DNA of 64,000 bases from positions 1 through 64,000 of the forward strand of contig NZ_CANNCR010000018.1 of the NCBI RefSeq assembly GCF_947503125.1. The letters run 5' to 3'. Both the position numbers and the translations under genes were made by a program. Shown one piece after another: positions 30,645 to 50,363 of the stretch. The notes beneath the pieces are model-generated. The model ran no database searches, was not told the origin of the DNA, and was given only the letters and a program-made list of their open reading frames with translations. Numbering within the stretch: position 1 is the stretch's first letter; each line of letters begins with the position of its first letter. Origin of the DNA: an uncultured Metabacillus sp. Lineage in GTDB: Bacteria > Bacillota > Bacilli > Bacillales > Bacillaceae.

Positions 30645-30673
30645 TTGACACTTTTATTATTTGATATTATGTT
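30645..30673 (+). promoter_or_regulatory. Sigma-A promoter of the first srlAE operon
   Basis: TTGACA, 17-base spacer, TATGTT. The bases just upstream (AATTCAAAAAAT) also precede the promoter at 32673, suggesting the two promoters arose by duplication. Confidence 0.75.
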
Positions 30674-30688
30674 ATATACATAACATAT

Positions 30689-30712
30689 GTAACATATATG
30701 AACAAATGTAAA
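30689..30712 (+). promoter_or_regulatory. Shared operator, site 1
   Basis: 24-base element starting GTAACATATAT and ending GAACAAATGTAAA, 15 bases downstream of the -10. Almost the same 24 bases occur at 32712-32735 and 37549-37572. Probable SorC-type regulator site. Confidence 0.72.
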
Positions 30713-30871
30713 TGAACGTCATTGTTTATTAATCTGGGAAACATATGTTTTTGCACTTTTTCAGAAATAAAATGACAGCGTTTTAATTATGTGATCGGAA
30801 AGTATTAAGCTGCCATCACATAACCAAAAAGACATAAGGGGAGGATTTATTTTCTAAAGCAAGATTGAATT

Positions 30872-30885
30872 TGAAAGCGCTTAAA
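30872..30885 (+). promoter_or_regulatory. Probable cre site
   Basis: TGAAAGCGCTTAAA, one mismatch from the CcpA consensus, in the 5' untranslated region 40 bases before srlA. Consistent with a roadblock-type glucose repression. Confidence 0.55.
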
Positions 30886-30925
30886 TTATTTGAATATCGA
30901 CAAAGGGGAAGGAGTGCAAGAAATA

Positions 30926-31456
30926 ATGGAATGGATTCAATGGTTTGGAGAACACTTTATTGGGATGTTTAATGCTGGCGGAGAAACATTTATGGGTTTA
31001 TTAACCGGCATTGTTCCAACATTAGTTGTGCTATTAACCTTTACGTATGCTGTAATGAAATTTATTGGGGAAGAGAGAGTAAACAAAGCGATTCAGTTTG
31101 CAGCAAAATATACATTATTACGATATACGGTGATGCCTATTCTAGCAGTCTTGCTTTTAACAAATCCCATGGCTTATACATTTGGCCGTTTTTTACCTGA
31201 AAAGCAAAAGCCGGCATTTTATGATTCAGCTGTTTCGTTTGTTCATCCTGTAACAGCGTTATTTCCATATGCAAATGCAGGTGAGCTTTTCGTTTATCTT
31301 GGCATTGCAAACGGAATTAAGGAAGCGGGTTATTCCATGTCAGAGCTTGCCGTGCGTTATTTTTTAGTTGGTATCTTAATCATTTTCATACGCGGGATTG
31401 TGACGGAAATGATTACAAAGTATTTAGCGAAAAAAATGGAAGTCAAATCATTATAG
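30926..31456 (+). CDS. srlA: PTS glucitol/sorbitol-type enzyme IIC2 (copy 1)
   Basis: Membrane subunit of a glucitol-family PTS permease. The 176 residues start MEWIQWFGEHFIGMFNAGG and contain LLTGIVPTLVVLLTFTYAV and MAYTFGRF.PEKQKP, as in SrlA/GutA. By eye it differs from copy 2 (47405-47932) at roughly 28 positions. ATG 30926 is chosen because the upstream GGGGAAGGAG and the copy 2 gene agree; a longer TTG frame from 30890 exists. It pairs with srlE 16 bases downstream. No EIIA gene is in this operon, so it must borrow SrlB from the second copy. Confidence 0.92.
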   Translation: MEWIQWFGEHFIGMFNAGGETFMGLLTGIVPTLVVLLTFTYAVMKFIGEERVNKAIQFAAKYTLLRYTVMPILAVLLLTNPMAYTFGRFLPEKQKPAFYDSAVSFVHPVTALFPYANAGELFVYLGIANGIKEAGYSMSELAVRYFLVGILIIFIRGIVTEMITKYLAKKMEVKSL

Positions 31457-31472: not shown

Positions 31473-32486
31473 ATGGCCTATCGTGCGGTTTTTGTTGCAA
31501 AAGGATCTGGCGGCTGGGGAGCAGGGCTTCATATTGAACCAAAAGGCAAAAGAACAAAGGTCGTGTCTATTACTGGAGGCGGGATTCATCCGGTTGCAAG
31601 AAAAATTGCTGAATTAACTGGAACAGAAGCAATTGATGGCTTTAAAAATGCTGTTCCAGAAGATGAGATGATGTGTGTTGTTATTGACTGTGGCGGTACG
31701 GCACGGATTGGGCTATATCCAATGAAGCGAATTCCAACTGTTGATATTATGGCATCTTCACCTTCTGGTCCGCTTGCAAGGCATATAACCGAGGATATTT
31801 TTGTTTCGGGTGTTACTGAAAAAGAAGTTGCTGTTGCCGAAGGATACAATGAAGCAGCAGGTGCTATGGAAGCTTCACAAGAATCCGTGTTTAACACAAA
31901 GGATAAAGAGAAATTTAAAGAAAACTATGAAAAGCTCAAAAAAGAAAAACTAGGAAATAGTGATAATTTTTTAACGAAATTTTCAAGAGGAATTGGGAAA
32001 GTAACAGGTACGTTCTATCAGGCTGGACGTGATTCGGTTGAAATGTTAATAAAAAATATTATCCCATTCATGGCTTTTGTCAGTATGTTAATTGGGATTA
32101 TTAACTATACAGGAATCGGTGACTTCATTGCGAACTTTTTATCTCCGCTTGCAAGCTCACTTGTAGGTTTGATTGTTATCGTAGTGGTATGTACTTTGCC
32201 ATTTTTATCACCAGTACTAGGCCCTGGTGCCGTTATTGCCCAGGTTATCGGAGTATTAATTGGCAGTCAAATTGCCTTAGGAAATATACCTCCTCAATTT
32301 GCGCTGCCGGCCCTATTTGCTATAAATGGTCAAGTTGGCTGTGACTTTATCCCCGTAGGTTTATCGCTGGGAGAAGCAAAGCCTGAAACGGTTCAATACG
32401 GTGTACCCGCGGTTTTATACAGCCGCCTTATTACTGGTGCATTTGCCGTCGTGATTGCTTATTTTGCTAGTTTTGGAATGTACTAG
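31473..32486 (+). CDS. srlE: PTS glucitol/sorbitol-type enzyme IIBC1 (copy 1)
   Basis: 337 residues: N-terminal IIB domain with the phosphorylated cysteine in [12 protein letters not shown] (Cys73), a charged linker (about 125-165), and a membrane IIC1 domain with [11 protein letters not shown] and [20 protein letters not shown]. It transfers phosphate to the incoming polyol together with SrlA. ATG 31473 follows GAAGGAGGAG. Very similar throughout to copy 2. Its substrate need not be glucitol, given the Aco-type complex downstream. Confidence 0.93.
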
Positions 32487-32701: not shown

Positions 32702-32711
32702 ATTTACAAAT

Positions 32712-32735
32712 GTAACACATAAGAACAAATGTAAA
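32712..32735 (+). promoter_or_regulatory. Shared operator, site 2
   Basis: Starts GTAACACATAA and ends GAACAAATGTAAA; preceded by TTTACAAAT, so ACAAATGTAA occurs twice as a direct repeat. It runs into the ribosome site, placing a bound regulator over the transcript start. Confidence 0.75.
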
Positions 32736-32751
32736 AGGAGGAAGGGAATTG

Positions 32752-33735
32752 ATGTTAAGCACAGTTAAATTGCCACCCCATATCACCAATGAGAAGCTAA
32801 TTTCACTCTATAAAGAAATGTGGTTAATTCGTTATTTTGATGAAAAGGTTGACCAGTTTTTTGCTAAAGGAATGATTCACGGCACAACCCATTTATGTGT
32901 TGGGCAGGAGCCTTCTGCAGCGGGGCCAATCGCTGCTTTAAAAGATATAGATAAAATTACAAGCACACATCGAGGGCATGGCCATTGTATTTCAAAAGGA
33001 GCAGATGTTAAGCGCATGATGGCAGAGCTGTTTGGACGGGAAACAGGCTACTGCAAAGGAAAAGGCGGTTCCATGCATATTGCTGACCTCGAAAAAGGGA
33101 ATTTAGGAGCAAATGGAATTGTAGGCGGGGGGATCCCGATCGCTGTAGGCGCAGCATTAACGTCAAAAATGAAAAAGTTAGGCTATGTTGTCCTCTGTTA
33201 TTTTGGTGATGGTGCAAGCAATGAAGGAAGTTTCCATGAAGCTCTTAATCTAGCATCCATCTGGGATTTACCGGTCGTCTTTATTTGTGAAAATAACCAA
33301 TATGGAATGAGCGGTCCTGTAAAGGAAATGACAAATATTGAACATATTGCTGAACGTGGCAGCAGTTACGGAATACCGGGGAAAATTGTTGATGGCACAG
33401 ATGTGATTGAAATGATGAATACCGTTTACGATGCGGTTGAACATGCTCGCAGCGGCAATGGGCCAACATTAATTGAAGCAAAAACATATCGTTGGAAAGG
33501 GCATTCGAAAAGTGATGCGAAAAAATATCGGACACGTGAGGAAGAGCAAGAATGGAGAAATAGAGACGGCATTAAGAAGTATAAGGAGCTATTAATTTCA
33601 GAAGGCCTCTTTACCGAAGAAGAAGCGAAACAACTTCAAATGGAAGCAAAAGAGGAAATTGAAGCTGCTGTTACCTATGCAGAAAATAGTCCAGAACCAT
33701 CCATTAATACTTTATTAGAAGATGTGTATGCGTAA
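32752..33735 (+). CDS. acoA: Acetoin-dehydrogenase-type E1 alpha subunit
   Basis: Thiamine-diphosphate E1 alpha of the 2-oxoacid/acetoin dehydrogenase family, 327 residues. It has STHRGHGHCISKGAD, the YCKGKGGSMHI segment and the ThDP motif GDGASNEGSFHEALNLA...ENNQYG. The length and the short N-terminus match AcoA rather than pyruvate E1 alpha (about 370). AcoA-type complexes cleave acetoin into acetyl-CoA and acetaldehyde. Here the PTS neighbours and shared operator suggest another methyl-ketol, for example a 1-deoxyketose phosphate; that is inference. ATG 32752 is ten bases after GGAGG; TTG 32749 is an alternative. Confidence 0.88.
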   Translation: MLSTVKLPPHITNEKLISLYKEMWLIRYFDEKVDQFFAKGMIHGTTHLCVGQEPSAAGPIAALKDIDKITSTHRGHGHCISKGADVKRMMAELFGRETGYCKGKGGSMHIADLEKGNLGANGIVGGGIPIAVGAALTSKMKKLGYVVLCYFGDGASNEGSFHEALNLASIWDLPVVFICENNQYGMSGPVKEMTNIEHIAERGSSYGIPGKIVDGTDVIEMMNTVYDAVEHARSGNGPTLIEAKTYRWKGHSKSDAKKYRTREEEQEWRNRDGIKKYKELLISEGLFTEEEAKQLQMEAKEEIEAAVTYAENSPEPSINTLLEDVYA

Positions 33736-33753: not shown

Positions 33754-34737
33754 ATGAGAGAGATTACCTATTTAGAAGCCGTCAGGGAAGCAATGAGTCA
33801 AGAAATGAGACAGAACGAGGACGTTTTTATTTTAGGCGAGGATATCGGAGTTTATGGAGGCGCTTTTGGTGTAACCCGTGGAATGATTGAAGAATTTGGG
33901 CCTGAGCGTGTCCGTAACACTCCAATATCTGAAGCAGCTATTGCAGGTGGTGCAGTTGGTGCAGCATTAACAGGGATGAGACCAATTTTAGAACTACAAT
34001 TCTCTGATTTTATTACAATTGCAATGGACCAAATGGTTAACCAAGCAGCTAAGCTTCGCTATATGAACGGCGGGATTGGGAGTGTGCCAATGGTGCTGCG
34101 TACACCAGCCGGGTCAGGTACAGGTGCGGCGGCACAGCACTCACAAAGCTTAGAGGCTTGGATGGCACATATTCCAGGTCTTAAAGTGATCCAGCCTTCA
34201 ACAGCTTATGATGCAAAAGGCTTGCTCAAGGCTGCGATAGATGACGATAATCCCGTGATTTTCTATGAGCATAAGCTTCTTTATAAAACGAAAGGTGATG
34301 TTCCTGAGGAGCAGTATTCGATTCCGATTGGTAAGGCTGACGTGAAGCGGAAAGGAACGGATGTCACGATTGTCGCAACATCCATTATGGTCCATAAAGC
34401 ATTGGAAGCAGCTGCAGAGCTTGAAAAAGAGGGAGTTGACGTAGAGATCGTTGATCCAAGAACACTCGTCCCCTTAGATGAAGAAACGATCATTGAATCT
34501 GTAAAAAAGACTGGCCGCTTAATCGTAGTTCATGAAGCTGTAAAGCGGGGCGGATTTGGCGGTGAGATTGCAAGCATGATTGCAGAAAGTGAAGCTTTTG
34601 ACTATCTTGATGCACCTATTAAACGCTTAGGCGGACTTTCAATTCCCATTCCATATAATCCAACTCTAGAAAAAGCGGCAATACCGCAAGTACCAGATAT
34701 TATCGGAGCTGTAAAAGAAATCGTTCGCTACAAATAA
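33754..34737 (+). CDS. acoB: Acetoin-dehydrogenase-type E1 beta subunit
   Basis: 327-residue transketolase-like beta subunit forming the E1 tetramer with the preceding protein. It begins [17 protein letters not shown] and has the conserved [44 protein letters not shown] and LVPLDEETI segments. ATG follows AAAGGAGGAACGTAGC; 18 bases separate it from the alpha gene. Position and spacing are as in acoABCL operons. Confidence 0.92.
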
Positions 34738-34750: not shown

Positions 34751-36091
34751 ATGGCAAAGGAAATTTTCATGCCGAAATTAAGCAGTACGATGGAAGTCGG
34801 AACCCTCCTTCAATGGTTTAAAGATGAAGGAGAGTCGGTAGAAATTGGGGAACCCTTGTTTGAAATTATGACAGACAAAATCAATATTGAAGTAGAGTCT
34901 TATGAAGATGGGATTTTACTAAAAAAATACTTTGACGTGGATCAGGAAGTTCCTGTAAATCAAATCATTGGCTATATTGGTGAGGAAAGTGAAAAAGTAC
35001 CTGCGGAATCACCAGGGATCTCTTCAGGAGACTCAAGTGAGGAAGGCATTGCAGCAAGCCCAGAGGAAAAGGATGCATCAAGCACTGTTGAAGAAAAACA
35101 ACCAGATTCAGCTGAAAAGATACGGGCAACTCCTGCGGCAAGAAGAGTTGCAAGAGAAAAGAAAATCGCGCTCACTCTTGTAACCGGCAGCGGACCAAAT
35201 GGCCGTATTCATGAAAAAGATGTGAAGCATATGTCTGAGAATAAGGCAGCAGCTGTAAAAATGACACCGCTCGCTAGAAAAATTGCCCAATCAGAACAAG
35301 TGGATGTTTCAAAAATAACGGGTACAGGTACAAACGGAAAAATCGTAAAAGACGATCTTGTAAGTCCCCGAAGAGGTCAGAATGCCGTAGCAGAAACAAA
35401 TCAATCAAACCGTAAAAAGCTTTCTGGTATGCGAAAAGTGATCGCAGATCGTATGCAAAAAAGCGTAACAACTGCCCCACATGTTACGTTAACAAGTGAT
35501 ATCGATATGACAAAGGTAAAAGAATTACGTGGGCAGCTTTTGCCAACAATCGAGAAACAAACTGGCTATCGTTTATCATTCACTGAAGTCATTATCAAAG
35601 CGGCAGGTATGGTTCTCTCACGTTATCCATCTGTTAATGCCTCGATAATCAATGATGAAATTGTGATGAACGAACAAATAAACATTGGCTTGGCAGTTGC
35701 ACTTGAGGATGGCTTAATAGTACCGGTGTTAAAGGATGTTAATAAAAAAGGATTAAGTATATTAACATCTGAAGCGAAAGATATTGGAAAACGAGCAAGG
35801 GAGTTAAAGTTACGTCCAGATGAAATGAAGGGCTCGACCTTCACGATTAGTAATCTTGGTATGTATGCGATTGATACGTTTACTCCAATTATTAATTTGC
35901 CAGAAACAGCGATCTTAGGTGTAGGAAGAATTCAAGATAAGCCGGTTGTGATCAATCAGGAAATTGTGATACGACCAATGATGGCAGTCAGTCTTTCCTT
36001 TGATCACCGGGCAATTGATGGTGCTCCTGCCGCTGCATTTTTAACAGAGCTTAAACATGTACTGGAAAATCCATTTGAATTGCTAGTTTAG
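34751..36091 (+). CDS. acoC: Dihydrolipoamide acyltransferase E2 with two E3-binding domains
   Basis: 446-residue E2 core that moves the acyl group from lipoate to CoA. It has one lipoyl domain (modified Lys43 in EIMTDKINIEVES), an acidic Ser/Glu linker and two consecutive peripheral-subunit-binding domains: about 124-159 (ATPAARRVAREKKIALTLV) and about 170-203 (MTPLARKIAQSEQVDVSKI). The catalytic domain ends LSFDHRAIDG (His419, Asp423). B. subtilis AcoC has, as I recall, only one binding domain, so the second is unusual. ATG follows AAGGAGGGATGATCG. Confidence 0.93.
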   Translation: MAKEIFMPKLSSTMEVGTLLQWFKDEGESVEIGEPLFEIMTDKINIEVESYEDGILLKKYFDVDQEVPVNQIIGYIGEESEKVPAESPGISSGDSSEEGIAASPEEKDASSTVEEKQPDSAEKIRATPAARRVAREKKIALTLVTGSGPNGRIHEKDVKHMSENKAAAVKMTPLARKIAQSEQVDVSKITGTGTNGKIVKDDLVSPRRGQNAVAETNQSNRKKLSGMRKVIADRMQKSVTTAPHVTLTSDIDMTKVKELRGQLLPTIEKQTGYRLSFTEVIIKAAGMVLSRYPSVNASIINDEIVMNEQINIGLAVALEDGLIVPVLKDVNKKGLSILTSEAKDIGKRARELKLRPDEMKGSTFTISNLGMYAIDTFTPIINLPETAILGVGRIQDKPVVINQEIVIRPMMAVSLSFDHRAIDGAPAAAFLTELKHVLENPFELLV

Positions 36092-36103
36092 GAGGTGCAA
36101 AGA

Positions 36104-37513
36104 ATGTCAAAAAGCTATGATATTGTCGTTATAGGCGGAGGACCTGGCGGCTATGTTTCCGCTATCCAAGCAGCTGAATTAGGGAAAAGCGTAGCGTTGA
36201 TAGAAGCAGAATTTTTGGGCGGCACCTGTTTAAATCGCGGGTGTATCCCGTCAAAAACATTCCTCAGACATGCGGAAATCATTGAATCGATTGAACAAGC
36301 AAAAGCTTGGGGCTTTGAAACAGGTGAGCTCACCTTTTCATTTGAGAAAATGAAAAAACGAAAAGATGATGTTATACATCGGTTGCGCAACGGGATTTCC
36401 TTCTTAATGAAACAAGGTAAAATTGATGTTTATGAAGGATTTGGCATGATAGAAACCCAAAACCAAATTAAGATTGTCTCAAATGAACAGTATGAGTACA
36501 TTCAAGCAGATAAAATCATCATTGCTACAGGTTCTACACCAGTCGTACCGGGCATACCTGGACTTGAAGCTGTGCAATTCGATACAAGTGATTCGATTTT
36601 TGATTTGCCTAAGATACCAGAGTCGATCACCATTATCGGCGGTGGTGTGATCGGTGTTGAGTTTGCTTGTATTTTTGCCAGCTTAAACACGAACGTAACA
36701 ATCATCGAAATGGCTGATCGTCTTGTACCGAGTGAAGATAAAGACGCTTCAAAGCTTTTAGAAAAGCAATTAAAGAAAAAAGGAGTGCAGATTTTAACTG
36801 GCACTACCCTCGAACGTGTTGAACAAACAGATCAACTCAAACACATCATTTGTACCAACAAAAAAGGTAATGAAAAAATTGTTGAATCAGAAATCTTGAT
36901 TGTGTGTATTGGTAGAAAGCCAAATCTCTCTGCTATAGCACAAATAAAGCTTGAAATGGACGGACCATTTATCAAAGTTAATGAAAAAATGGAAACAAGT
37001 TTAGCAAATGTTTATGCAGTAGGGGATGTCGTGGGAGGTTATCAGCTAGCACATGTAGCAAGCGCTGAAGGTATTGTTGCGGCAAATAATGCTTCAGGTG
37101 TTGCTGACACAATTGATTATAAAGTTGTCCCTCGTTGCATCTATACACTTCCTGAAATCGCTAGCGTTGGTATGACAGAAGATGAAGCGCGTGGAAAAGG
37201 CCTTGCAGTCATAACGGAAAAATTTGATCACGTTGGTAACGGAAAGGCCCTTACCATCGGCGAAACATCGGGCTTCACAAAGATTGTCTACGAAGAAAAA
37301 TACGGAGAGATCATCGGAGTAACAATGGTTGGACCACATGTAACGGAAATGATTTCAGAAGCTTCAGCTTTTATGTATTTAGAAGGAACCGTAGATGAAG
37401 CAGCTAAAATGATCCATCCTCACCCAACGGTATCTGAAACCTTTTATGAAGCAGCGCTGAATCTAGCGAATAAGGAAAGAAAGAAACGAAAAGAAATAGT
37501 GAAAACTACTTGA
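36104..37513 (+). CDS. acoL: Dihydrolipoamide dehydrogenase E3
   Basis: FAD-dependent enzyme reoxidising dihydrolipoamide with NAD, 469 residues. FAD motif VVIGGGPGGYVSAIQAAELG, redox disulfide GGTCLNRGCIPSK (Cys42-Cys47), NAD motif IIGGGVIGVEFA, ANVYAVGDV, and the active-site HPHPTVSET near the C-terminus. ATG 36104 follows AGGAGGTG; the GTG at 36095 lies in that site. A dedicated E3 completes a self-sufficient four-gene complex. Confidence 0.94.
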   Translation: MSKSYDIVVIGGGPGGYVSAIQAAELGKSVALIEAEFLGGTCLNRGCIPSKTFLRHAEIIESIEQAKAWGFETGELTFSFEKMKKRKDDVIHRLRNGISFLMKQGKIDVYEGFGMIETQNQIKIVSNEQYEYIQADKIIIATGSTPVVPGIPGLEAVQFDTSDSIFDLPKIPESITIIGGGVIGVEFACIFASLNTNVTIIEMADRLVPSEDKDASKLLEKQLKKKGVQILTGTTLERVEQTDQLKHIICTNKKGNEKIVESEILIVCIGRKPNLSAIAQIKLEMDGPFIKVNEKMETSLANVYAVGDVVGGYQLAHVASAEGIVAANNASGVADTIDYKVVPRCIYTLPEIASVGMTEDEARGKGLAVITEKFDHVGNGKALTIGETSGFTKIVYEEKYGEIIGVTMVGPHVTEMISEASAFMYLEGTVDEAAKMIHPHPTVSETFYEAALNLANKERKKRKEIVKTT

Positions 37514-37538: not shown

Positions 37539-37548
37539 TTTTACAAAA

Positions 37549-37572
37549 GTAACATGTAAGAACAAATGTAAA
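37549..37572 (+). promoter_or_regulatory. Shared operator, site 3
   Basis: Starts GTAACATGTAA and ends GAACAAATGTAAA, ten bases after the -10. Same element as at 30689 and 32712. Confidence 0.75.
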
Positions 37573-37651: not shown

Positions 37652-38128
37652 ATGGGGGAGTTATTTTGTTTAGATCAACAAGTTGTTTTTTTAGATGTTG
37701 AAGCAGAAAAAAGTGAAGAAGTCATTACGTTTCTTTATGAAAAATTGAAAGATTTAAACTATGTAAAAGAATCATTTCTACAGGCTATCTTGGAAAGAGA
37801 AAATGTTTATCCAACAGGATTGCCATTGGCAAATATGGGGGTAGCTATTCCACATACAGACCCTGAACATATTGTCAGCCCCATGATTTCGTTCGCTAAA
37901 TTGTATAAACCGGTACAATTTCAAATGATGGGAAATCCAGGGGAAACCGTTGATGCCGATATCGTATTTATGTTGGCGATCAAAGAACCAGAAAAACAAC
38001 TTGTGATGTTAGAAAGACTAATGGGGGTTTTTCAAAACGAAGAAACGATGTCACGATTACAAGATGCAAAAAGTGCTGAAGCAGTAACAAATATACTTAA
38101 TAAAGAACTAAATCGAGTAAGTAATTAG
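37652..38128 (+). CDS. gatA: PTS EIIA, galactitol type
   Basis: 158-residue cytosolic phosphocarrier of the fructose/mannitol EIIA fold. The phosphorylated histidine is in GVAIPHTD (His68), preceded by LERENVYPTGLPL as in GatA. It takes phosphate from HPr and passes it to GatB. ATG 37652 follows AAGGGGAGGA. First gene of an operon under the shared operator. Confidence 0.9.
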   Translation: MGELFCLDQQVVFLDVEAEKSEEVITFLYEKLKDLNYVKESFLQAILERENVYPTGLPLANMGVAIPHTDPEHIVSPMISFAKLYKPVQFQMMGNPGETVDADIVFMLAIKEPEKQLVMLERLMGVFQNEETMSRLQDAKSAEAVTNILNKELNRVSN

Positions 38129-39601: not shown

Positions 39602-39629
39602 AAGAAAATGAGGAATGGAGGAAACAAAC

Positions 39630-39908
39630 ATGGCAAAACGTATTTTAGTATCTTGTGGTACAGCAGTTGCAACTTCAACAGTAGTAGCAAAAAAGGTAGA
39701 GGAGGTTTTAAAGAGTAAAGGGTATGACGTGGTAGTTGAACAATGTAAAGCTTCAGAGGTCCCATCTAAGGCTGAACGAGCAGACCTTATTGTGACAACT
39801 ACACCAGTAAGCGGGGTAGGAAGTAAGCCTGTTATTCATACACTTTCTTTCCTTACAGGGGTAGGAGTAGAGGAGGATATTAAAAAAATTATCGAATATC
39901 TTGATTAA
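39630..39908 (+). CDS. gatB: PTS EIIB, galactitol type
   Basis: 92-residue phosphocarrier of the lactose/galactitol IIB fold: RILVSCGTAVATSTVVAKKV with active Cys9 in the P-loop, then ADLIVTTTPV. ATG 39630 is used because GGAGGAAA lies directly before it; ATG 39615 overlaps that site. Closes the gatACB set. Confidence 0.9.
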   Translation: MAKRILVSCGTAVATSTVVAKKVEEVLKSKGYDVVVEQCKASEVPSKAERADLIVTTTPVSGVGSKPVIHTLSFLTGVGVEEDIKKIIEYLD

Positions 39909-39999: not shown

Positions 40000-40026
40000 G
40001 TTTAGAATAAAACTGGAGGAATGGTC

Positions 40027-41482: not shown

Positions 41483-41504
41483 TCTACAAATAATGGAGGG
41501 TGCC

Positions 41505-42218: not shown

Positions 42219-42949
42219 AGAATGTTTTAGTTATTGGGGGAGCGGCTGGTATTGGTAAGGACATTGCTTTGAGTTTCGTAATGGAAGGCAATACGGTGGC
42301 GATTGCTGACATTAATAAACAGGCTCTTACCAAAATGAAGAATGAATATGGAAAGGAAAATAAACTTTTTGTTTTTGAAGCAGATGCTAGCGAATGGAAG
42401 AGCATTGAAGATTTAGCAAAGCAAGTAAAGGAGCAAATTGGAACAATTGATCTTCTGGTCTACTCAGCAGGGATTACAAAGCGAATAAAATTTGAAGAAA
42501 TTGATTGGGAAACATGGAAGAAGACGATGGCCGTTAATTTGCATGGTTTATTTTATAGTATAAAGTCATTTTATCCTTTTTTAGAATTTGGAGGCAGTGT
42601 CGTCATTATAGGATCGGGTTCTGCCATAACAGGATCCGGCGGTGGAATCCACTATGCCTCTTCTAAAGGGGGAGCATTCGGATTCATGAGATCATTAGTA
42701 ACAGATTTAGGTAAGTTGGGGATAACTATTAATGTTTTGGCACCGAGAGTGATTGAATCTGAAATGCTTGATGCACTATATCCTTCACATGAAGCGAAGC
42801 AACAATTAACAAATGAAATTCCTATCGGGAGATTGGGAAAGCCTTCCGATATTACGAGTGCTGTTAAATATTTATGCAGTGATCAAGCTAAGTACATTCA
42901 TGGGCAAGTTATCTTATTAGATGGCGGGAGAACGTATAAAAGCTCCTAA
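42215..42949 (+). CDS. Short-chain dehydrogenase/reductase 2
   Basis: 244-residue SDR: cofactor motif IGGAAGIGKDIA, AGITKR after the NAG-type strand, and catalytic Ser plus YASSKGG. ATG 42215 overlaps the preceding stop by four bases (ATGA) and follows AAGGAGG; the longer frame from 42164 is internal to SDR 1. Sugar-alcohol oxidoreductase by context; substrate unknown. Confidence 0.9.
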   Translation: MKNVLVIGGAAGIGKDIALSFVMEGNTVAIADINKQALTKMKNEYGKENKLFVFEADASEWKSIEDLAKQVKEQIGTIDLLVYSAGITKRIKFEEIDWETWKKTMAVNLHGLFYSIKSFYPFLEFGGSVVIIGSGSAITGSGGGIHYASSKGGAFGFMRSLVTDLGKLGITINVLAPRVIESEMLDALYPSHEAKQQLTNEIPIGRLGKPSDITSAVKYLCSDQAKYIHGQVILLDGGRTYKSS

Positions 42950-43107: not shown

Positions 43108-44061
43108 ATGCTAAGCTGGGAAGAAAGAAGACAGCTAGTGAAAACGGCTAGCTTGTATTATATAGAAGGATTAACTCAGGAGCAGATTGCGAAAAGGGTT
43201 GGAGTATCAAGGCCTGTTATCTCGAAGCATCTGCAAAAAGCTAAGGAATACGGAATCGTCGAAGTGTTTATTAAGGATGAAAGCTTACATACAGTTGAGC
43301 TTGAAAACAAACTTGAGACAAGATTTAACTTAAAGGACGCTGTCGTTGTTCCAAATACAAGTTCCAAAGAGCTAAGCAAAAAAGCAGTCGGTCAGGCAGC
43401 AGCAAACTACGTATCCAAAAATTTAAAGCGTGTAAAAAAGATAGGAATCAGCTGGGGAACGACGTTAGCGGAGTTTGTGAAGGAATACCCGTTTGAAAGA
43501 AGAGAGCATATGAAAATTGTCCCATTAGTAGGAGGAATGGGAAGTCAGCATGTTGAAATTCATGCTAATCAATTAGCTTATGAATTGGCGAAAAAAATGA
43601 ATGCAGCGTGCTCGTATCTTTATGTCCCGGCTTTTATTGAGTCTGGGGAATTAAAAGAACGGTTAGTGGATATGACAGACGTTAAATATGTCCTTGAAGA
43701 AGGAAAAAATGTTGATATGGCTATTGTCGGCATTGGAAACCCATATCATGATTCCATCCTAGAAAAAATCGGTTACTTAACAGCAAAAGAATTAGAGGAA
43801 TTTAAAAAGGTGGAAACCGTGGGTGATATCTCATCCCGCTTTGTCGATATAAATGGAAGGTTAATCAATCACCCTATAAATGATAAGGTGATTGGAATAA
43901 CCTTGGAAGAACTAAAGGAAATTGATGATGTTATTGCTGTTGCAGAAGGATTAAATAAAGTTGAAAGTATTTTAGGAGCACTAAATAGCCACTGCCTTGA
44001 CGTGTTAATCATTGATGAATCAACAGCAGCAGCTCTTTTAGAAAGAGTGGGGGACCTATAG
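43108..44061 (+). CDS. SorC-family sugar-responsive regulator 1
   Basis: 317 residues: N-terminal helix-turn-helix (YYIEGLTQEQIAKRVGVSRP then VISKHLQKAKE) and the SorC sugar-phosphate-binding domain with ISWGTTLAEF, VPLVGGMGS and VAEGLNKV. This is the best candidate to bind the operator repeated upstream of srlAE, the aco-type operon and the gat operon. ATG 43108 follows TTGAGGTGAAG. A paralogue closes the second PTS operon (49419). Confidence 0.88.
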   Translation: MLSWEERRQLVKTASLYYIEGLTQEQIAKRVGVSRPVISKHLQKAKEYGIVEVFIKDESLHTVELENKLETRFNLKDAVVVPNTSSKELSKKAVGQAAANYVSKNLKRVKKIGISWGTTLAEFVKEYPFERREHMKIVPLVGGMGSQHVEIHANQLAYELAKKMNAACSYLYVPAFIESGELKERLVDMTDVKYVLEEGKNVDMAIVGIGNPYHDSILEKIGYLTAKELEEFKKVETVGDISSRFVDINGRLINHPINDKVIGITLEELKEIDDVIAVAEGLNKVESILGALNSHCLDVLIIDESTAAALLERVGDL

Positions 44062-44186: not shown

Positions 44187-44522
44187 TTGAAAAGATCTGA
44201 GATGGATGCTAATCTTTTTTGTATTTATTGCAATGATGAGACACCACATGTGCTCGTATATCTTAATGATGAAATTACCAGAATTGAATGCAAGGAATGT
44301 CATCATATCGTTGAGCTGAAGGTGGATATTATGAAAGAATTTTACAAAGAGATATATGAACGCGTCTCAACAAAGCCATCTCGAATAACGAGTGAGTATA
44401 AGAAGGATCTAAGCAGCTTTTTATCGAAACTCCCAATAAGAATTGCCAGCAAACCTTATCGGTTAATGCATGATTTAAACGAATCAAGAAAAATAATTAG
44501 AAAGTACAAGAAAAAGCAATAA
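44187..44522 (+). CDS. Small zinc-ribbon-containing protein
   Basis: 111 residues with an N-terminal four-cysteine zinc ribbon (CIYCND and CKECHH, about 12-39) and a basic helical C-terminus (SRKIIRKYKKKQ). Similar small proteins occur singly in Bacillus genomes, annotated only as bh protein; function unknown. TTG 44187 is used after AAAGGGGCGATA; ATG 44202 is possible. Confidence 0.65.
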   Translation: MKRSEMDANLFCIYCNDETPHVLVYLNDEITRIECKECHHIVELKVDIMKEFYKEIYERVSTKPSRITSEYKKDLSSFLSKLPIRIASKPYRLMHDLNESRKIIRKYKKKQ

Positions 44523-45412: not shown

Positions 45413-45486
45413 TTGACAACCCTTTCATTTCGTTTTAGAATGAACACATAACTTGTAACGAATGATAATGATTGTAACATATGTTA
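45413..45486 (+). promoter_or_regulatory. Promoter and palindrome of the DRL-gutM-srlAEB operon
   Basis: TTGACA (45413-45418), 17-base spacer, TAGAAT (45436-45441). Downstream is the perfect 12-base palindrome TAACATATGTTA (45475-45486), preceded by GTAACG and GTAAC words. The layout resembles the three shared operators but the sequence differs, fitting control by the second SorC protein. Confidence 0.7.
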
Positions 45487-45601
45487 TAAATTAATTATTT
45501 TTGTTCTTAAAAGGAATAATTGTTGTATCAGTTTTAAAAGTGTTATTGAGATTAACAAAAGTTATATATTTTTGATTTACACAAAGGGAGGATATTAGAA
45601 T

Positions 45602-46855
45602 ATGTCAATTTATCAACAGCTTTTAGAAAGAGAACGTGCGAATGAACCAATTAAAGTAGGAGTCATCGGTGCTGGACAAATGGGTTTTGGAATGATTGCT
45701 CAAATTTCTACGATTCCTGGGATGAGTGTTACAGGAATTAGTGATATCAATTTAGAGGCAGCAAAAAGAGCCGAAGATTTCTATCTATCACATTCAGCAA
45801 GAAAAGAATCAATCGTTGTATCAAATGATTTTCGTGAAGTGATTCATTCTCCAAATGTTGAAGTAATTGTTGATGCTACTGGTGTTCCAGAAGTTGGAGC
45901 TAATATTTCTTTAGAGGCTTTAACAGCTAAAAAACACCTTGTTTTATTAAATGTTGAAGTCGATATCACAATCGGTTCCATCATGCATCAACAATTTAAA
46001 AATGCTGGCTTGGTTTACACAGGGTCAGCAGGTGATGAGCCAGCAGCAACACTTGAGTTATATGAGTTTGCGAAAACAATGGGTATGGAAGTATTAGTTG
46101 CTGGTAAAGGAAAGAATAACAAATTACGAGTTACAGCAAATCCAGATACAGCAAGAGAAGAAGCTAAAAAGAATAAAATGGCAGCACATATGCTGGCTGC
46201 GTTCCAAGATGGTACGAAAACGATGGCGGAAATGAACTTATTGTCCAATGCGATTGGATTTGTTCCAGATGTTGTTGGAATGCATGGTATTGCTGGGGAT
46301 CTTGATTCTGTATTAAAAGATTTAGATCTTAAAGAAAAAGGCGGAGTTTTAAGTCAATATGGTGTAGTTGAATATGTAGACGGTCTTGCACCTGGGGTAT
46401 TTGTCATTGTAAAGGGACAAAATGAAGGTGTAGCACATGAATTAAATTATTTGTTGAAAAAAGGTGAAAGAGACCATCACATTCTATATCGCCCATATCA
46501 CTTAGCAAGTTTAGAAACACCAATTACAATTGCGAAAGCCGTTTTACAGCATGATTCATCGATTCATCCGTTAGGTGCACCGATTTCAGATACGGTTACG
46601 GTTGCAAAGCGTGATATCAAAGCTGGTGAAACATTAGATGGTATTGGCGGTTATTCCGTACGCGGTGTTCTTGAAACACATCAAGAAATGAAGCGTAACG
46701 GACATATTCCAATCGGCCTCATCAGCGGAAAGGTTGTTGCGAAAAGGGATATTCGTCAAGGTCAATTCCTTACAACTGACGATGTTGAATTAGATCATTC
46801 AACAACAGTTTGGAAGCTGAGAGCGCTTCAAGATACGTTATTCCCAACAGTTTAA
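45602..46855 (+). CDS. DRL (DXR-like)/SAF-domain NADP oxidoreductase in a polyol operon
   Basis: 417-residue oxidoreductase. The Rossmann domain has VGVIGAGQMGFGM (about 19-31). Conserved blocks VDATGVPEVGA, LLNVEVDITIG, GSAGDEPAATLELYEF and VAGKGKNNKL follow, and a C-terminal SAF-type domain (about 330-410, KRDIKAGETLDGIGGY). These blocks resemble Brucella DRL, the alternative 1-deoxyxylulose-5-phosphate reductoisomerase, as I remember it. The family also has many members of unknown role. Being the first gene of a PTS operon argues for catabolism, not isoprenoid synthesis: it could oxidise and isomerise a branched polyol phosphate to a 1-deoxyketose phosphate, or act on a related branched sugar. 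ATG follows AAAGGGAGG. Confidence 0.75.
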   Translation: MSIYQQLLERERANEPIKVGVIGAGQMGFGMIAQISTIPGMSVTGISDINLEAAKRAEDFYLSHSARKESIVVSNDFREVIHSPNVEVIVDATGVPEVGANISLEALTAKKHLVLLNVEVDITIGSIMHQQFKNAGLVYTGSAGDEPAATLELYEFAKTMGMEVLVAGKGKNNKLRVTANPDTAREEAKKNKMAAHMLAAFQDGTKTMAEMNLLSNAIGFVPDVVGMHGIAGDLDSVLKDLDLKEKGGVLSQYGVVEYVDGLAPGVFVIVKGQNEGVAHELNYLLKKGERDHHILYRPYHLASLETPITIAKAVLQHDSSIHPLGAPISDTVTVAKRDIKAGETLDGIGGYSVRGVLETHQEMKRNGHIPIGLISGKVVAKRDIRQGQFLTTDDVELDHSTTVWKLRALQDTLFPTV

Positions 46856-46933: not shown

Positions 46934-46964
46934 AGAAAACATAAATGAGGGGTGGATGCTCTTT

Positions 46965-47384
46965 ATGAAAATTGCCATTATTCTCTGTTGTTTATTAGTC
47001 ATTCAATATGCCCTAACCTTTATACAAGTACGTTATTATCGAAAAAGTATGGATAAGATTGTAAGCCGTTACACTCAGAAAGAGGGATATTATTTGTTTT
47101 CTGGTATGGAAAGACGGCAATTCCGCCCTGGAGCGATTGCGATGCTAGTGGTGGACAATCAATATATTATTCAAGAATGTCATGTCGTAAATGGTTTTTC
47201 GGTATTATCAAAGTTTAAAGAGTTGGAGAAATATAAAGGACAGCATGTAGGAGCTGTACTAGATAGTGTTCAAGAAAATAGCGGGGAGAAGCGCAAAAAA
47301 ATGCCAGCAATCAGTTCAGCTCTTGCAAAAGCTGCTGAAAATGCCTTGTTGTCGATATCGAAAAAAAATATCTCCATGGTTTAA
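46965..47384 (+). CDS. gutM: Glucitol operon activator-like protein GutM
   Basis: 139 residues with an N-terminal membrane helix (KIAIILCCLLVIQYALTFI) and a cytosolic domain containing RRQFRPGAIAMLVVD and ECHVVNGF. GutM/SrlM proteins modulate expression of glucitol PTS operons; the mechanism is poorly known. ATG 46965 is nine bases after GAGGGGTGG; ATG 46956 abuts it. Directly upstream of srlA, as in classic gut operons. Confidence 0.9.
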   Translation: MKIAIILCCLLVIQYALTFIQVRYYRKSMDKIVSRYTQKEGYYLFSGMERRQFRPGAIAMLVVDNQYIIQECHVVNGFSVLSKFKELEKYKGQHVGAVLDSVQENSGEKRKKMPAISSALAKAAENALLSISKKNISMV

Positions 47385-47404: not shown

Positions 47405-47932
47405 ATGGAATGGATTCAATGGTTTGGTGAACATTTTATTGGAATGTTTAATGCTGGTGGAAAACAATTTATGAGTCTATTAACTGGCATTGTTCCAACG
47501 TTAGTTGTTTTATTAACATTTACGTATGCTGTTATTAAATTTGTTGGGGAAGAGAGAGTTAATAAAGTTATTCAATTCGCTGCTAAATATATGATCTTAC
47601 GTTATACGTTAATGCCAATCTTATCAATCTTGTTATTAACGAATCCAATGGCTTATACATTTGGTCGTTTTGTTCCAGAAAAACAAAAACCAGCCTTTTT
47701 TGATTCTTTAGTATCCTTCTTACATCCAGTTACAGCGTTATTTCCGTATGCTAATGCTGGTGAGCTCTTTGTTTATTTGGGAATCGCCAATGGTTTAGCG
47801 GAAGCAGGCTATTCGATGTCAGAACTTGCGGTTCGTTACTTCTTAGTCGGGATTGTCATTATGTTGATGCGCGGAGTAATCACAGAGTTGATTACAAAAT
47901 ATCTTGCTAGAAAAATGGAAGCGAATTCTTAA
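47405..47932 (+). CDS. srlA: PTS glucitol/sorbitol-type enzyme IIC2 (copy 2)
   Basis: 175-residue membrane subunit, with the same start (MEWIQWFGEHFIGMFNAGG) and the same conserved blocks as copy 1. ATG 47405 follows GGGAAGGAGTG, which fixes the start of copy 1 by comparison. Together with srlE and srlB it forms a complete permease. Confidence 0.95.
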   Translation: MEWIQWFGEHFIGMFNAGGKQFMSLLTGIVPTLVVLLTFTYAVIKFVGEERVNKVIQFAAKYMILRYTLMPILSILLLTNPMAYTFGRFVPEKQKPAFFDSLVSFLHPVTALFPYANAGELFVYLGIANGLAEAGYSMSELAVRYFLVGIVIMLMRGVITELITKYLARKMEANS

Positions 47933-47950
47933 TTACGAGGAGGTATCATC

Positions 47951-48967
47951 ATGACACAACGAGCAATTTTTGTTGATAAAGGTTCAGGCGGTTGGGGAGT
48001 CGGTCTTAGAATTGAACCGAAAGGAAAAAAAGTAAAGGTTGTTTCCATTACAGGTGGCGGAATTCACCCTGTTGCCAAGAAAATTGCAGAGTTATCAGGA
48101 ACGGAAGCTGTCGATGGCTTCAAAAACTCTGTACCTGAAGATGAGATGATGTGCGTTGTTATTGACTGTGGAGGAACAGCAAGAATCGGTCTATATCCAA
48201 TGAAGCGTATTCCAACAGTGGATATTTTGCCTTCTTCTCCATCTGGCCCGTTAGCAAAACACATTACAGAAGATATATTTGTATCAGGTGTAACGGAGAA
48301 AGAAATTAAACTAGCTGACGAAGCAACAGTTGTAACAAGCCAGCAAGAAGAAGCAGAAACTCCTAAGTTTGATACTAAGGATAAAGAAAGCTTTAAAGAA
48401 AACTATGAGAAGTTAAAGAAAGAAAATCGAGAAAGCAATGATAATTTCTTAATGAAATTTTCAAGAGGCATTGGAAAAGTTACTGGAACATTTTATCAAG
48501 CAGGCCGTGATTCCGTAGACATGTTGATTAAAAACATTATTCCTTTTATGGCATTTGTCAGTATGTTAATTGGAATCATCAATTACACTGGAATTGGTGA
48601 TGTGATTGCGAATTTCCTATCACCGCTGGCAGGTTCACTTTGGGGCTTAATCGTCATTGTTTTTGTTTGTACCTTGCCGTTCTTATCTCCAGTGCTTGGT
48701 CCAGGTGCCGTCATTGCACAAGTAATTGGGGTGTTGATTGGTACGCAGATTGCTGCTGGAAACATTCCGCCACAGTTTGCCCTTCCAGCATTATTTGCTA
48801 TAAATGGGCAGGTTGGTGCGGACTTCGTACCGGTTGGTTTATCATTAGGTGAAGCAAAACCGGAAACCGTTCAATATGGGGTGCCTGCTGTATTGTACAG
48901 TCGCTTAATCACAGGTGTACTTGCTGTTGTCATCGCTTATGTTGCGAGTTTTGGGATGTATGAGTAA
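47951..48967 (+). CDS. srlE: PTS glucitol/sorbitol-type enzyme IIBC1 (copy 2)
   Basis: 338 residues: IIB domain with phospho-Cys73 ([12 protein letters not shown]), linker of different sequence from copy 1 (about 118-150), and IIC1 membrane domain with [11 protein letters not shown] and [19 protein letters not shown] follows ACGAGGAGGTATC. The divergence from copy 1 is concentrated in the linker, and the permease core is nearly the same, so both probably recognise similar polyols. Confidence 0.95.
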   Translation: MTQRAIFVDKGSGGWGVGLRIEPKGKKVKVVSITGGGIHPVAKKIAELSGTEAVDGFKNSVPEDEMMCVVIDCGGTARIGLYPMKRIPTVDILPSSPSGPLAKHITEDIFVSGVTEKEIKLADEATVVTSQQEEAETPKFDTKDKESFKENYEKLKKENRESNDNFLMKFSRGIGKVTGTFYQAGRDSVDMLIKNIIPFMAFVSMLIGIINYTGIGDVIANFLSPLAGSLWGLIVIVFVCTLPFLSPVLGPGAVIAQVIGVLIGTQIAAGNIPPQFALPALFAINGQVGADFVPVGLSLGEAKPETVQYGVPAVLYSRLITGVLAVVIAYVASFGMYE

Positions 48968-49010
48968 ACTTTTAATAGTGTAGAATGCTATCTAAAATGG
49001 AGGAATGAAC

Positions 49011-49370
49011 ATGTATAAAAGTATAGTAAAAGAAATTGGAGCATTAGCCTTATCGTTTGAAGAAGAAAAAATTGTCATCTTATTTGGCCCTCAAGCACCT
49101 CAAGAACTAAAAGAAGTAGCTGTTATTCATGAATTCGAAGAAGATAGCTCAGATGAACCAATTAAGGTTGGAGGCATTCTTCAAGTAGATGATCAACAAT
49201 TTACCATTACAGCTGTAGGTTCAGCAGCGAATAATAATCTAAAGGAACTTGGTCATATTTCAATTTATTTCTCAGAGCCAGCTGAACAAGTTCTTCCAGG
49301 AGCTGTATTTGCAAGTCCTTATGAGCTTCCAAAATTTAAAGATGGCAGTGTAATAGAATTTAAAGGGTAA
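49011..49370 (+). CDS. srlB: PTS glucitol/sorbitol-type EIIA
   Basis: 119-residue phosphocarrier with the active histidine in VAVIHEF (His40) and the conserved C-terminal LGHISIYFSEP and LPGAVFASP. ATG 49011 is six bases after GGAGGA; ATG 49005 abuts it. It is the only EIIA-Gut in the window and must serve both SrlAE copies. Confidence 0.93.
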   Translation: MYKSIVKEIGALALSFEEEKIVILFGPQAPQELKEVAVIHEFEEDSSDEPIKVGGILQVDDQQFTITAVGSAANNNLKELGHISIYFSEPAEQVLPGAVFASPYELPKFKDGSVIEFKG

Positions 49371-49418
49371 TGTCACCTAGACATGAATTGATAAGAACGG
49401 AATAAAGGGGGTGCTGAT

Positions 49419-50363
49419 TTGTCCTTTTTTGAAGATAGAAGATTGCTTGTAAAAATTGCACATATGTACTATGAGGAGGGGGCTACTCAATCACAGATTG
49501 CCGACGAAATTGGGGTAAGCCGTTCGCTGATCTCGAAATACCTCTCCAAAGCCCGAGAGCTTGGGATTGTGGAAATTATTATTCACGACGATACCATTCA
49601 CCCCTTTAGACAGCTTGAAGGAAAGATTGAACGGTTATATGGGCTGCGTGAAGTGGTTTGTGTTCCAAACCTTGGTAATGAATCATCAAAGGCTCGAGTA
49701 GGAGCTGCAGCGGGTAAATATCTGCTAAGAGTCATCCGGGATGGACAAACCATTGGAGTTTCGTCTGGAACGACGATACATGAAATGGTAGAAGCGATTT
49801 CTACCAACCAGCAATTTCCAACTGTTACGTTTGTCCCGCTAGTTGGCGGAATGGGAAATGAGCGGGTTGATATTCATGCCAATCATATAGCAGCTACGTT
49901 TGCTGAAAGAATGCAAGCTCAATATAAGCTCCTCCATGCTCCGGTTGTTGTAGATTCGAAAGAAGCGAAAGAAATCTTTATGAGGCAAACTTCAATCCAG
50001 AATATCTTTTCTTTAGGTACGAAAGCGAATATAGCGATTGTAGGGATTGGCGGAACTCCTGAACATTCGACAATGGTAAAGTCCTATTTAGGGCAGGAGC
50101 ATCAAGAATATTTTGATCAATCAGATGTAGTCGGAGATATTTGTTATAACTTTATCAATGAGCATGGACAGGCATCAAATGTGTCATGGAATGAAAAAGT
50201 TATTGCTTTGGAAGTAGAGAAACTAAAAGATATTCCGCTAGTTGTTGGAGTAGCTTGCGGAGTGGAAAAAGTTAAGGCTATAAAGGCATCATTGGAAGGG
50301 AAACTAATAGATGTTCTTGTTACTGATGAGCAAACGGCAAAAGCCTTATTAGAGGAAGTATAG
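49419..50363 (+). CDS. SorC-family sugar-responsive regulator 2
   Basis: 314 residues, paralogue of the 43108 gene: helix-turn-helix YYEEGATQSQIADEIGVSRS then LISKYLSKARELG, and a SorC sensor domain with GVSSGTTIHEM, VPLVGGMGNERVDIHANHIA and VGVACGVEKVKAI. TTG 49419 follows AAAGGGGG. Last gene of the DRL-gutM-srlAEB operon and its probable autoregulated controller. Confidence 0.88.
   Translation: MSFFEDRRLLVKIAHMYYEEGATQSQIADEIGVSRSLISKYLSKARELGIVEIIIHDDTIHPFRQLEGKIERLYGLREVVCVPNLGNESSKARVGAAAGKYLLRVIRDGQTIGVSSGTTIHEMVEAISTNQQFPTVTFVPLVGGMGNERVDIHANHIAATFAERMQAQYKLLHAPVVVDSKEAKEIFMRQTSIQNIFSLGTKANIAIVGIGGTPEHSTMVKSYLGQEHQEYFDQSDVVGDICYNFINEHGQASNVSWNEKVIALEVEKLKDIPLVVGVACGVEKVKAIKASLEGKLIDVLVTDEQTAKALLEEV

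Follow-up and report, generated by a model that had tools for sequence, protein, structure and literature searches.

A putative catabolic route linking a DXR-II-type oxidoreductase to an acetoin-dehydrogenase-like complex in Bacilli

The genes considered here lie between 30.6 and 50.4 kb of a window of 64,000 nucleotides (positions 1 to 64,000 of contig NZ_CANNCR010000018.1; G000:C18:1-64000 in our numbering) from the 5.44-Mb genome of an uncultured Metabacillus sp. (GCF_947503125.1). They encode glucitol-type (Srl) and galactitol-type (Gat) phosphotransferase systems (PTSs), a complex resembling acetoin dehydrogenase (acoABCL) and DRL, an oxidoreductase of the DXR-II type. We find that DRL and the E1 component of this complex co-occur across the Bacilli. 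A preliminary description of the window had proposed that the two act as successive steps behind a PTS, and this is strongly supported by their co-occurrence, by minimal gene runs and by operators common to both in one locus (L125). With moderate confidence, we lean towards a route in which 2-C-methylerythritol would be taken up by a PTS, converted by DRL to 1-deoxy-D-xylulose 5-phosphate (DXP) and cleaved by the complex, which the gat genes would also feed, under two SorC regulons.

DRL and a distinct E1 occur together in Bacilli

In a sample of 250 genomes drawn evenly from the class Bacilli, DRL was detected by its DRL_cat domain and E1 by the match of its alpha subunit to the acoA product of the window (E values up to 1e-70; at most eight candidates scored per genome). 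The E1 alpha matches fell into one group of at least 471 bits, found in 26 genomes, and a next group of at most 392 bits. DRL_cat was present in 25 genomes, and both DRL and the E1 of the higher-scoring group in 23 (Fisher p=4e-27, a value that overstates the certainty since related genomes are not independent), representing 19 genera and 11 families; G167 and G209 had DRL only, and G102, G095 and G189 had this E1 only. As a control, acetoin-dehydrogenase-like E1s (300-392 bits, hand-picked from the rows in this range, with rows of 240-300 bits left out) were found in 55 genomes, six of which had DRL (p=0.80), that is, without association. Together, the co-occurrence and this control lead us to reject a chance neighbourhood, and the occurrence of these genes together in other genomes, whose absence the preliminary description had listed among the grounds for refuting its proposal, is borne out. 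The link is not only one of synteny, since in three of the 23 genomes (G139, G172 and G043) the two genes are 178-240 kb apart; in G187 and G269 the two genes are split between contigs, and DRL lies within 1-2 kb of the end of its contig.

Scanning named genomes with the DRL protein yielded 69 loci, to which the window was added as a 70th source for the clustering of open reading frames (ORFs). Among these 70 sources, clusters corresponding to srlB and sorC were each found in 65, gutM and srlA in 63 and srlE in 62; acoA and acoB were found in 27, acoC in 26 and acoL in 25. In a tree of the DRL proteins, that of the window groups with L002 near the base of a Bacillaceae clade. The most compact arrangements are the runs DRL-srlB-sorC-acoABCL of a Vagococcus (L035) and of E. 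rivorum (L038), and the run DRL-sorC-acoABCL-srlB of E. innesii (L027), in which the genes are separated by 3-99 bases with no other enzyme between them and gutM-srlA-srlE adjoins in divergent orientation. Because such runs consist only of DRL, a PTS IIA component, sorC and acoABCL, DRL and the complex would be expected to bring a PTS product into central metabolism.

Residues and predicted cofactor of DRL

The best solved relative of the window's DRL is the Brucella DXR-II (PDB 3upl), to which it is similar over its full length (3e-86); with its DRL_cat and SAF domains, the protein belongs to the DXR-II family. A 2013 survey of DXR-II (PMC3847144) names K191, K193, T229, H250, R320 and G121 as residues that separate DXR-II from DLO1/2 or bind fosmidomycin. 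The window's DRL keeps all six. We mapped the positions, through the 3upl alignment, onto 95 rows (94 distinct), including one from the window and the DRLs of all 25 sample genomes: G121, K191 and T229 are found in all 95, K193, H250, R320 and also F178 in 94 each, E174 in 77 and Y322 in 67, with Phe in the other 28. His250 is replaced by Asn in the protein of L047, which is aco-linked. The DRL of G167, alone among the 95 rows, is without K193, R320 and F178, and for this reason looks like a DLO paralogue.

The second Rossmann strand ends in an Asp (Asp48) in all 95 rows; the Brucella protein has Ser-Ala-Arg-Arg there, its Ala aligning with Asp48. In Rossmann enzymes an Asp at this place predicts NAD+ over NADP+. 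From this invariant residue at the cofactor site we predict NAD+ for DRL and not the NADP of the preliminary description, and such a preference is what a catabolic oxidation would want. Since Asp48 is also present in the outlier of G167, it is not specific to aco-linked DRLs.

DXR-I was found in 22 of the 23 genomes holding both DRL and E1. Of 21 genomes in which DRL and aco are linked, eight were without DXR-I, and six of these also without DXS over its cut-off, although three of the six are small metagenome-assembled genomes that may be incomplete; G011 and G014 have DXR-I but no DXS over the cut-off. A biosynthetic role of DRL in isoprenoid formation is therefore unlikely, as most of its hosts have DXR-I and other linked genomes are without both DXR-I and DXS.

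The E1 is set apart from acetoin dehydrogenase

One operon of the window encodes E1 alpha, E1 beta, a lipoyl E2 and E3, the full subunit set of an acetoin dehydrogenase complex. In a tree of E1 alpha proteins, those from DRL-linked loci and from related ones make up a 41-member clade (support 0.96), sister to six acetoin-type E1s; the window's E1 does not fall inside the clade of these six references, and five of them coexist with this E1 type in one genome. For two of the six, the label acetoin-type follows from the order of the genes and the presence of sigma-54 activators; for the others it is presumed. A second copy in the window's genome, at C37, has an E1 of 53% identity and consists of acoABCL followed by genes for a zinc-dependent alcohol dehydrogenase (ADH) and a GAF/sigma-54 activator; the acetoin-type copy of B. 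inaquosorum has a sigma-54 activator 3' of the operon. Both layouts, we assume, are like those of classical acetoin operons with AcoR. No AcoR-type sigma-54 activator lies beside aco in the window, where the neighbours are sorC and PTS genes.

A comparison of 38 DRL-type rows (37 distinct; L102, L110, L111 and L121 left out) with the six acetoin-type E1s revealed several positions that switch completely. A loop reads YRWKGHSKSDAKKYR in the DRL type in place of YRNYGHFEGDAQ in the acetoin type, and positions 45-47 are Gly-Thr-Thr against Gly-Phe-Val. All 40 distinct E1s with 60% identity or more have Lys or Arg at both new loop positions, a feature of none of the six acetoin-type E1s; L121 has Lys at both and L110 and L111 have Arg at both, whereas in L102 (52% identity, inside the 41-member clade) the loop is YRYHGHSKSD. 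This loop aligns with YRYHGHSMSDP of human pyruvate dehydrogenase (PDH), which we take to be its phosphorylation loop, at the mouth of the active site. A phosphate-binding role of the basic loop is plausible on this alignment. Plain acetoin dehydrogenase fits neither the E1 tree nor the loop; by its clade, what had been described as an AcoABCL-type complex is not an acetoin dehydrogenase, and the genome has a separate, acetoin-type copy at C37. Pyruvate or another 2-oxo acid is a conceivable substrate of the complex.

Three copies of this E1 are present in Vagococcus allomyrinae (G011), one in the DRL-srl locus (L035) and the others with gat-AraD (L094) and gat-SDR genes (L101; SDR, short-chain dehydrogenase/reductase). 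Loci of Erysipelotrichia encode, in the same stretch, a relative of octanoyl/lipoyl transferases that scores below curated cut-offs and could help to charge E2. L110 and L111 have an E1 of the same clade with a major facilitator superfamily (MFS) carrier, two SDRs and a sigma-54 activator, perhaps showing another substrate for the clade.

Proposed pathway

DXP is a ketol of the form CH3-CO-CHOH-R, and its cleavage between C2 and C3 by thiamine diphosphate (ThDP) is the reverse of the carboligation catalysed by DXS. In the route that we favour, the Srl/Gut PTS, a family recognized from its sequence, would import and phosphorylate 2-C-methyl-D-erythritol or a stereoisomer. DRL, as an NAD+-preferring DXR-II, would then oxidize and rearrange the resulting 2-C-methylerythritol 4-phosphate (MEP) to DXP, reversing the isoprenoid step, as its residues suggest. 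ThDP on the Aco-like E1 would attack the C2 carbonyl of DXP, with release of glyceraldehyde 3-phosphate, and E2 and E3 would pass the acetyl unit to CoA and the electrons to NAD+. The predicted net reaction is methyltetritol + phosphoenolpyruvate + CoA + 2 NAD+ -> acetyl-CoA + glyceraldehyde 3-phosphate + pyruvate + 2 NADH. DXP as the linking metabolite fits both the chemistry and the DXR-II residues of DRL; 2-C-methylerythritol is the substrate that we infer. Pyruvate and acetoin dehydrogenases reportedly form 1-deoxyketoses, according to the title of a paper of 1986. In a later study, purified PDH made 1-deoxy-D-xylulose from pyruvate and D-glyceraldehyde, and aceE mutants raised DXP in vivo, the output of wild-type PDH being insufficient to replace DXS (PMC3424233).

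Gene content of the window

The gene set given for 30.6-50.4 kb in the preliminary description was recovered in that every gene named there was found; the first of its two glucitol sets is incomplete, consisting of srlA1-srlE1 alone, with neither gutM nor a IIA gene (srlB). All annotated genes in this interval are on the + strand, except for one reverse ORF (44625-45257) that encodes a cupin. The genes are:

30926..31456, + strand: srlA1, glucitol-type PTS IIC (PF03608 1.7e-78; NF049923 over cut-off, scored on 30890-31453)
31473..32486, + strand: srlE1, glucitol-type PTS IIBC (NF049924 2e-156, over cut-off)
32749..33735, + strand: acoA-like E1 alpha, proposed 1-deoxyketose-phosphate (DXP) dehydrogenase E1 (PF00676 5.3e-89; ThDP motif; clade; basic loop)
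33754..34737, + strand: acoB-like E1 beta (PF02779/PF02780; NF006667 419.7 bits)
34751..36091, + strand: acoC-like E2 acyltransferase (PF00198, PF02817, PF00364; lipoyl and E3-binding domains; DHRAIDG motif)
36095..37513, + strand: acoL, dihydrolipoyl dehydrogenase (TIGR01350 538.7 bits, over cut-off; CLNRGC motif)
37652..38128, + strand: gatA-like PTS IIA (PF00359 5.2e-37)
38183..39601, + strand: gatC-like PTS IIC (PF03611 2.8e-91; TIGR00827 470 bits, below cut-off 542)
39615..39908, + strand: gatB-like PTS IIB (PF02302 6.5e-13)
40021..40452, + strand: orf40021, small conserved protein, membrane-like by eye (no Pfam or NCBIfam match)
40436..41482, + strand: zinc-dependent ADH of the gat module (PF08240, PF00107)
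41493..42218, + strand: first SDR of the gat module (PF00106 2.7e-39)
42164..42949, + strand: second SDR of the gat module (PF13561 1.6e-53)
43108..44061, + strand: sorC1 regulator (PF04198 5.6e-78)
44187..44522, + strand: conserved CxxC..CxxC protein (cluster 15; no Pfam match)
45602..46855, + strand: DRL, DXR-II-type oxidoreductase (PF21135, DRL_cat, 1.2e-57; SAF domain; Brucella DXR-II 3upl 3e-86)
46956..47384, + strand: gutM (PF06923 1e-21)
47405..47932, + strand: srlA2, PTS IIC (PF03608 8.9e-76)
47951..48967, + strand: srlE2, PTS IIBC (NF049924 527.9 bits)
49005..49370, + strand: srlB, PTS IIA (PF03829 5.2e-37)
49419..50363, + strand: sorC2 regulator (PF04198 4e-70)

The paired proteins are 85% (srlA1/srlA2) and 84% (srlE1/srlE2) identical. 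Besides srlB, the genome holds a single other GutA-type IIA gene, at C29:36319, and the srlB product perhaps also serves srlAE1. Relatives of sorC1 (57-73% identity) lie 3' of aco in seven loci. The cluster 15 product, a protein of 110 amino acids with two CxxC pairs, travels with sorC1/aco or with DRL across genera in 13 of the 70 sources (the window and L004, L008, L012, L026, L032, L033, L047, L058, L061, L064, L066 and L068).

The PTS modules and the gat branch

No sorbitol-6-phosphate dehydrogenase scored over its cut-off among the window genes tested, and none was found in the srl operons; the nearest match is an SDR of the gat operon, with 134 bits against a cut-off of 307. Nor do the gat genes make up a galactitol operon: GatC scores 470 against 542 and GatD 154 against 550, and no GatY or GatZ is present among the operon genes.

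The earlier suggestion that the gat branch is tied to the Aco-type complex holds, as gat and E1 are linked in other genomes as well. This E1 occurs with a gat-ADH-SDR set like that of the window in L015, L065, L117 and L125, where a protein of the orf40021 type occupies the equivalent position between gatB and the ADH gene. It occurs with gat and a gene for an AraD-like epimerase in L006 (over the PRK06557 cut-off), L047 and L094 (the latter two related to the L006 protein). In three genomes (L109, L113 and L115, in G102, G139 and G172), gat PTS and aco genes are found without a dehydrogenase, the E1 being accompanied only by the gat PTS, sorC, the CxxC protein and a putatively regulator-like protein that ends in an EIIA domain. 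Where no dehydrogenase is present, the PTS product itself should be a ketol, for example DXP from 1-deoxy-D-xylulose; a C4 epimerase would be reasonable, since C4 of a 1-deoxypentulose phosphate survives the cleavage as C2 of glyceraldehyde phosphate. Both sets are thus in keeping with a PTS that delivers either the ketol itself or its epimer, and the gat-ADH-SDR-SDR module of the window would feed other 1-deoxyketose phosphates into the same complex.

Operators and regulation

A 25-bp pattern for a first operator, ATGTAACANATNNGAACAAATGTAA, was drawn by eye from two sites (30687 and 32710). Allowing up to three mismatches, it has three sites in the window against 0.02 expected, a flattering figure since the pattern derives from two of its own sites. 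A palindrome read by eye 5' of DRL, related to operator 1 but different, is taken as operator 2; scores below are from a position weight matrix (PWM).

30687..30711, + strand: operator 1 (SorC1/aco type), 5' of srlA1 (no mismatches; PWM 33.1, site used in building the PWM)
32710..32734, + strand: operator 1, 5' of acoA (pattern match)
37547..37571, + strand: operator 1, 5' of gatA (two mismatches; PWM 36.3, site used in building the PWM)
45460..45488 (about), + strand: operator 2 (SorC2 type), 5' of DRL

The core GAACAAATGTAA is found just 5' of acoA in 13 of the 26 aco-holding relatives among the 69 loci (L006, L010, L012, L013, L015, L018, L020, L026, L032, L033, L047, L058 and L068), the exact core not being found in the other 13; it is also present, distant from aco, in L003 and L005. 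L015 has a site of the operator 1 type at 16803 (PWM 34.7), 5' of gatA (start 16847), and in L125 this type is common to the promoters of acoA (PWM 31.0) and of gutM-srlAEB-DRL (PWM 33.2). Operator 2 resembles sites 5' of DRL in L010, L015, L059 and L061. It belongs to a second, related site type with weaker scores (PWM about 9-25), found 5' of gutM and DRL at many of the Bacillaceae loci that were scanned. A single regulon for the whole window is rejected, as the aco operator was not found 5' of DRL. With operator 1 at srlA1, acoA and gatA and a different site type at DRL, the window seems to hold two regulons; from the position of the sites, SorC1 would act at operator 1 and control srlAE1, aco and gat, and SorC2 would act at operator 2 and control DRL and the second srl set.

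Other gene contexts of DRL

In Metabacillus arenae (L066), a DRL relative (85-87%), deposited in several pieces, lies 5' of acoABCL. In G209 (L112, 9702-13310), DRL and gatACB are flanked by a clpC-type gene and radA, and ispD-ispF lies about 3 kb downstream; this genome has DXR-I and no Aco-type E1. The Murdochiella DRLs (L054 and L056) stand beside other genes, for example a transaldolase-like one, a context of a different kind. Genes for a class II aldolase, a triosephosphate isomerase (TPI)-like protein and YjbQ, in part or as a full set, adjoin DRL in L037, L039, L041, L043, L044, L060, L062 and L063. An erythritol-like pathway was considered and rejected, since TPI-like or RpiB genes lie near some DRLs and none is present among the window genes annotated at 24.8-55.2 kb or in the minimal runs.

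Phosphoketolase genes are found near DRL operons without adjacent aco in enterococci and lactobacilli (L041, called directly, and L043, L044, L049, L051 and L069, called by ORF cluster 35), which suggests that these DRLs make a different product. In the Enterococcus avium group (L014, L017, L019, L022, L024 and L025), mtnK-mtnA and a gene of the AraD/aldolase family lie 5' of the DRL-srl operon, hinting at a link with the salvage of 5-deoxy- or methylthio-pentoses; salvage of methylthioribose or 5-deoxyribose as a common theme was rejected, because mtnK/mtnA adjoin DRL in these six loci only. Some DRL lineages lack the E1 and have neighbouring genes for transketolase, RpiB, phosphoketolase, a TPI-like protein or an aldolase, so that the family as a whole probably accepts different branched polyols or feeds different sinks.

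Alternative explanations

Several observations weigh against the route through DXP. We queried by genome 34 of the 43 loci without adjacent aco (of the remaining nine, eight belong to genomes covered by these queries and L057 is cut off by the edge of its contig): this E1 is encoded elsewhere in 18, present as a contig-edge fragment in one (G304) and absent in 15, namely two Listeria, four lactobacilli, two Tetragenococcus, two Murdochiella, Trichococcus, E. dongliensis, Enterococcus CSURQ0835, B. inaquosorum and Bacillus ISL-34, where DRL must have another fate. The Murdochiella DRLs have no Srl gene nearby. Transketolase, transaldolase, RpiB or phosphoketolase genes near some DRLs fit an ordinary ketose phosphate better, and the transketolase-linked DRLs include several of those closest to the window's by identity (L003-L005 and L007). 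The DRL promoter of the window carries a site type different from that of aco. Asp48 and the E1 loop are placed in the active site by alignment and not from a structure of these proteins, and the basic loop need not mean phosphate, since its Arg residues are kept in L110 and L111, where the E1 is accompanied by an MFS carrier and a sigma-54 activator and there is no PTS.

The transketolase and phosphoketolase neighbours, the genomes with DRL and without this E1, and the separate site types in the window would all suit a DRL whose substrate is a polyol phosphate with a hydroxymethyl branch (of the apiitol or hamamelitol type) and whose product is an ordinary ketose phosphate, with the Aco-like complex serving gat only. 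We regard this as unlikely: a lipoyl complex is needless for an ordinary ketose phosphate, the minimal runs hold nothing but DRL, a PTS IIA, sorC and aco, the operator of L125 is common to the DRL and aco promoters, and in the 250-genome sample E1 accompanies DRL in 23 of 24 genomes when G167 is set aside. Moreover, when six genomes were queried whose DRLs share 87-90% identity with that of the window, four had the E1 elsewhere (L002, L004, L005 and L007; none in L003 and L061), and the L006 genome holds it too. The gat-aco sets without a dehydrogenase and those with the AraD-like epimerase would agree with imported 1-deoxyketoses or 1-deoxypolyols (e.g., 1-deoxy-D-xylulose) as the true substrates, cleaved by Aco, with DRL making or draining MEP as a side reaction or signal; this is decidedly unlikely given that DRL accompanies this E1 in 23 of 26 genomes, that the minimal runs have no other dehydrogenase and that the NAD-type site argues for oxidation. 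Ordinary use of sorbitol, galactitol and acetoin by genes that are neighbours by chance, as the family names Srl, Gat and Aco would have it, is very improbable, being contradicted already by the co-occurrence of DRL and E1; the window genes tested lack a sorbitol-6-phosphate dehydrogenase over cut-off, and the acetoin-type E1, which is not DRL-associated, falls in a different clade and is encoded in this genome by a copy of its own (C37, 53%, sigma-54 activator). Finally, the published reading of DXR-II as a spare isoprenoid enzyme rests on members that complement dxr mutants, as stated in PMC3847144. Applied to DRL it is scarcely tenable in view of the DXR-I in 22 of 23 genomes, the linked genomes without DXR-I and DXS, the Srl PTS genes near DRL in 62-65 of 70 sources and the NAD-type cofactor site.

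Implications and comparison with known systems

We see about an even chance that Bacilli and Erysipelotrichia hold a widespread family of DXP:CoA (1-deoxyketose-phosphate) dehydrogenases, and that an NAD-dependent DXR-II there runs the entry to isoprenoid synthesis backwards for energy, feeding on 2-C-methylerythritol from plants and on 2-methyltetrols derived from isoprene. If so, much of the DXR-II family of Firmicutes would be catabolic and not a spare isoprenoid enzyme, 2-oxoacid/acetoin dehydrogenase complexes would gain a new class of substrate, and methylerythritol, perhaps also the 2-methyltetrols, would have a biological sink. 2-Methyltetrols arise by isoprene oxidation. Their ecological supply is uncertain, since PMC12177631 describes them as mainly condensed-phase products that no field campaign had identified in the atmosphere.

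The 2013 survey asked why owners of DXR-I should retain another enzyme unrelated to it, and pointed to genomes in which DXR-II occurs without other isoprenoid genes (PMC3847144); a catabolic role would answer both puzzles. It would also explain the active DXR-II of Finegoldia magna, in whose genome no other gene of the MEP or mevalonate pathway was found (PMC3847144). The words 'catabol' and 'degradation' are absent from the main text of that survey, and in the literature outside subscription journals and preprints we found no title on the catabolism of methylerythritol or DXP. Were the route confirmed, it would caution against treating the presence of DXR-II as proof that isoprenoids are made or that fosmidomycin has a target.

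Compared with the DXR-II/DRL of Brucella (PDB 3upl and 3upy), the DRL described here is alike in its full-length similarity, SAF domain and fosmidomycin-contact residues, and differs in having Asp48 and not Ala-Arg-Arg, in its place in PTS operons and in host genomes that mostly keep DXR-I. The complex shares with acetoin dehydrogenase AcoABCL the subunit set, the gene order and the nearest E1 clade, but its E1 belongs to a sister clade, with YRWKGHSKSDAKKYR and not YRNYGHFEGDAQ, and the operon is surrounded by sorC and PTS genes, with no sigma-54 activator beside it. From the glucitol (Srl/Gut) PTS come srlA, srlE, srlB and gutM, with DRL here in place of sorbitol-6-phosphate dehydrogenase and a SorC regulator; with the galactitol (Gat) PTS the window has gatA, gatB and gatC in common, but GatC is below its cut-off, no tagatose-bisphosphate aldolase gene lies beside it, two SDRs are present and the set is linked to aco. 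With DXS, transketolase and PDH, as we understand their mechanism, the E1 would share the addition of ThDP to a C2 carbonyl and an acetyl-type intermediate; here the proposed direction is that of cleavage, on DXP, with CoA and NAD+ as the acceptors.

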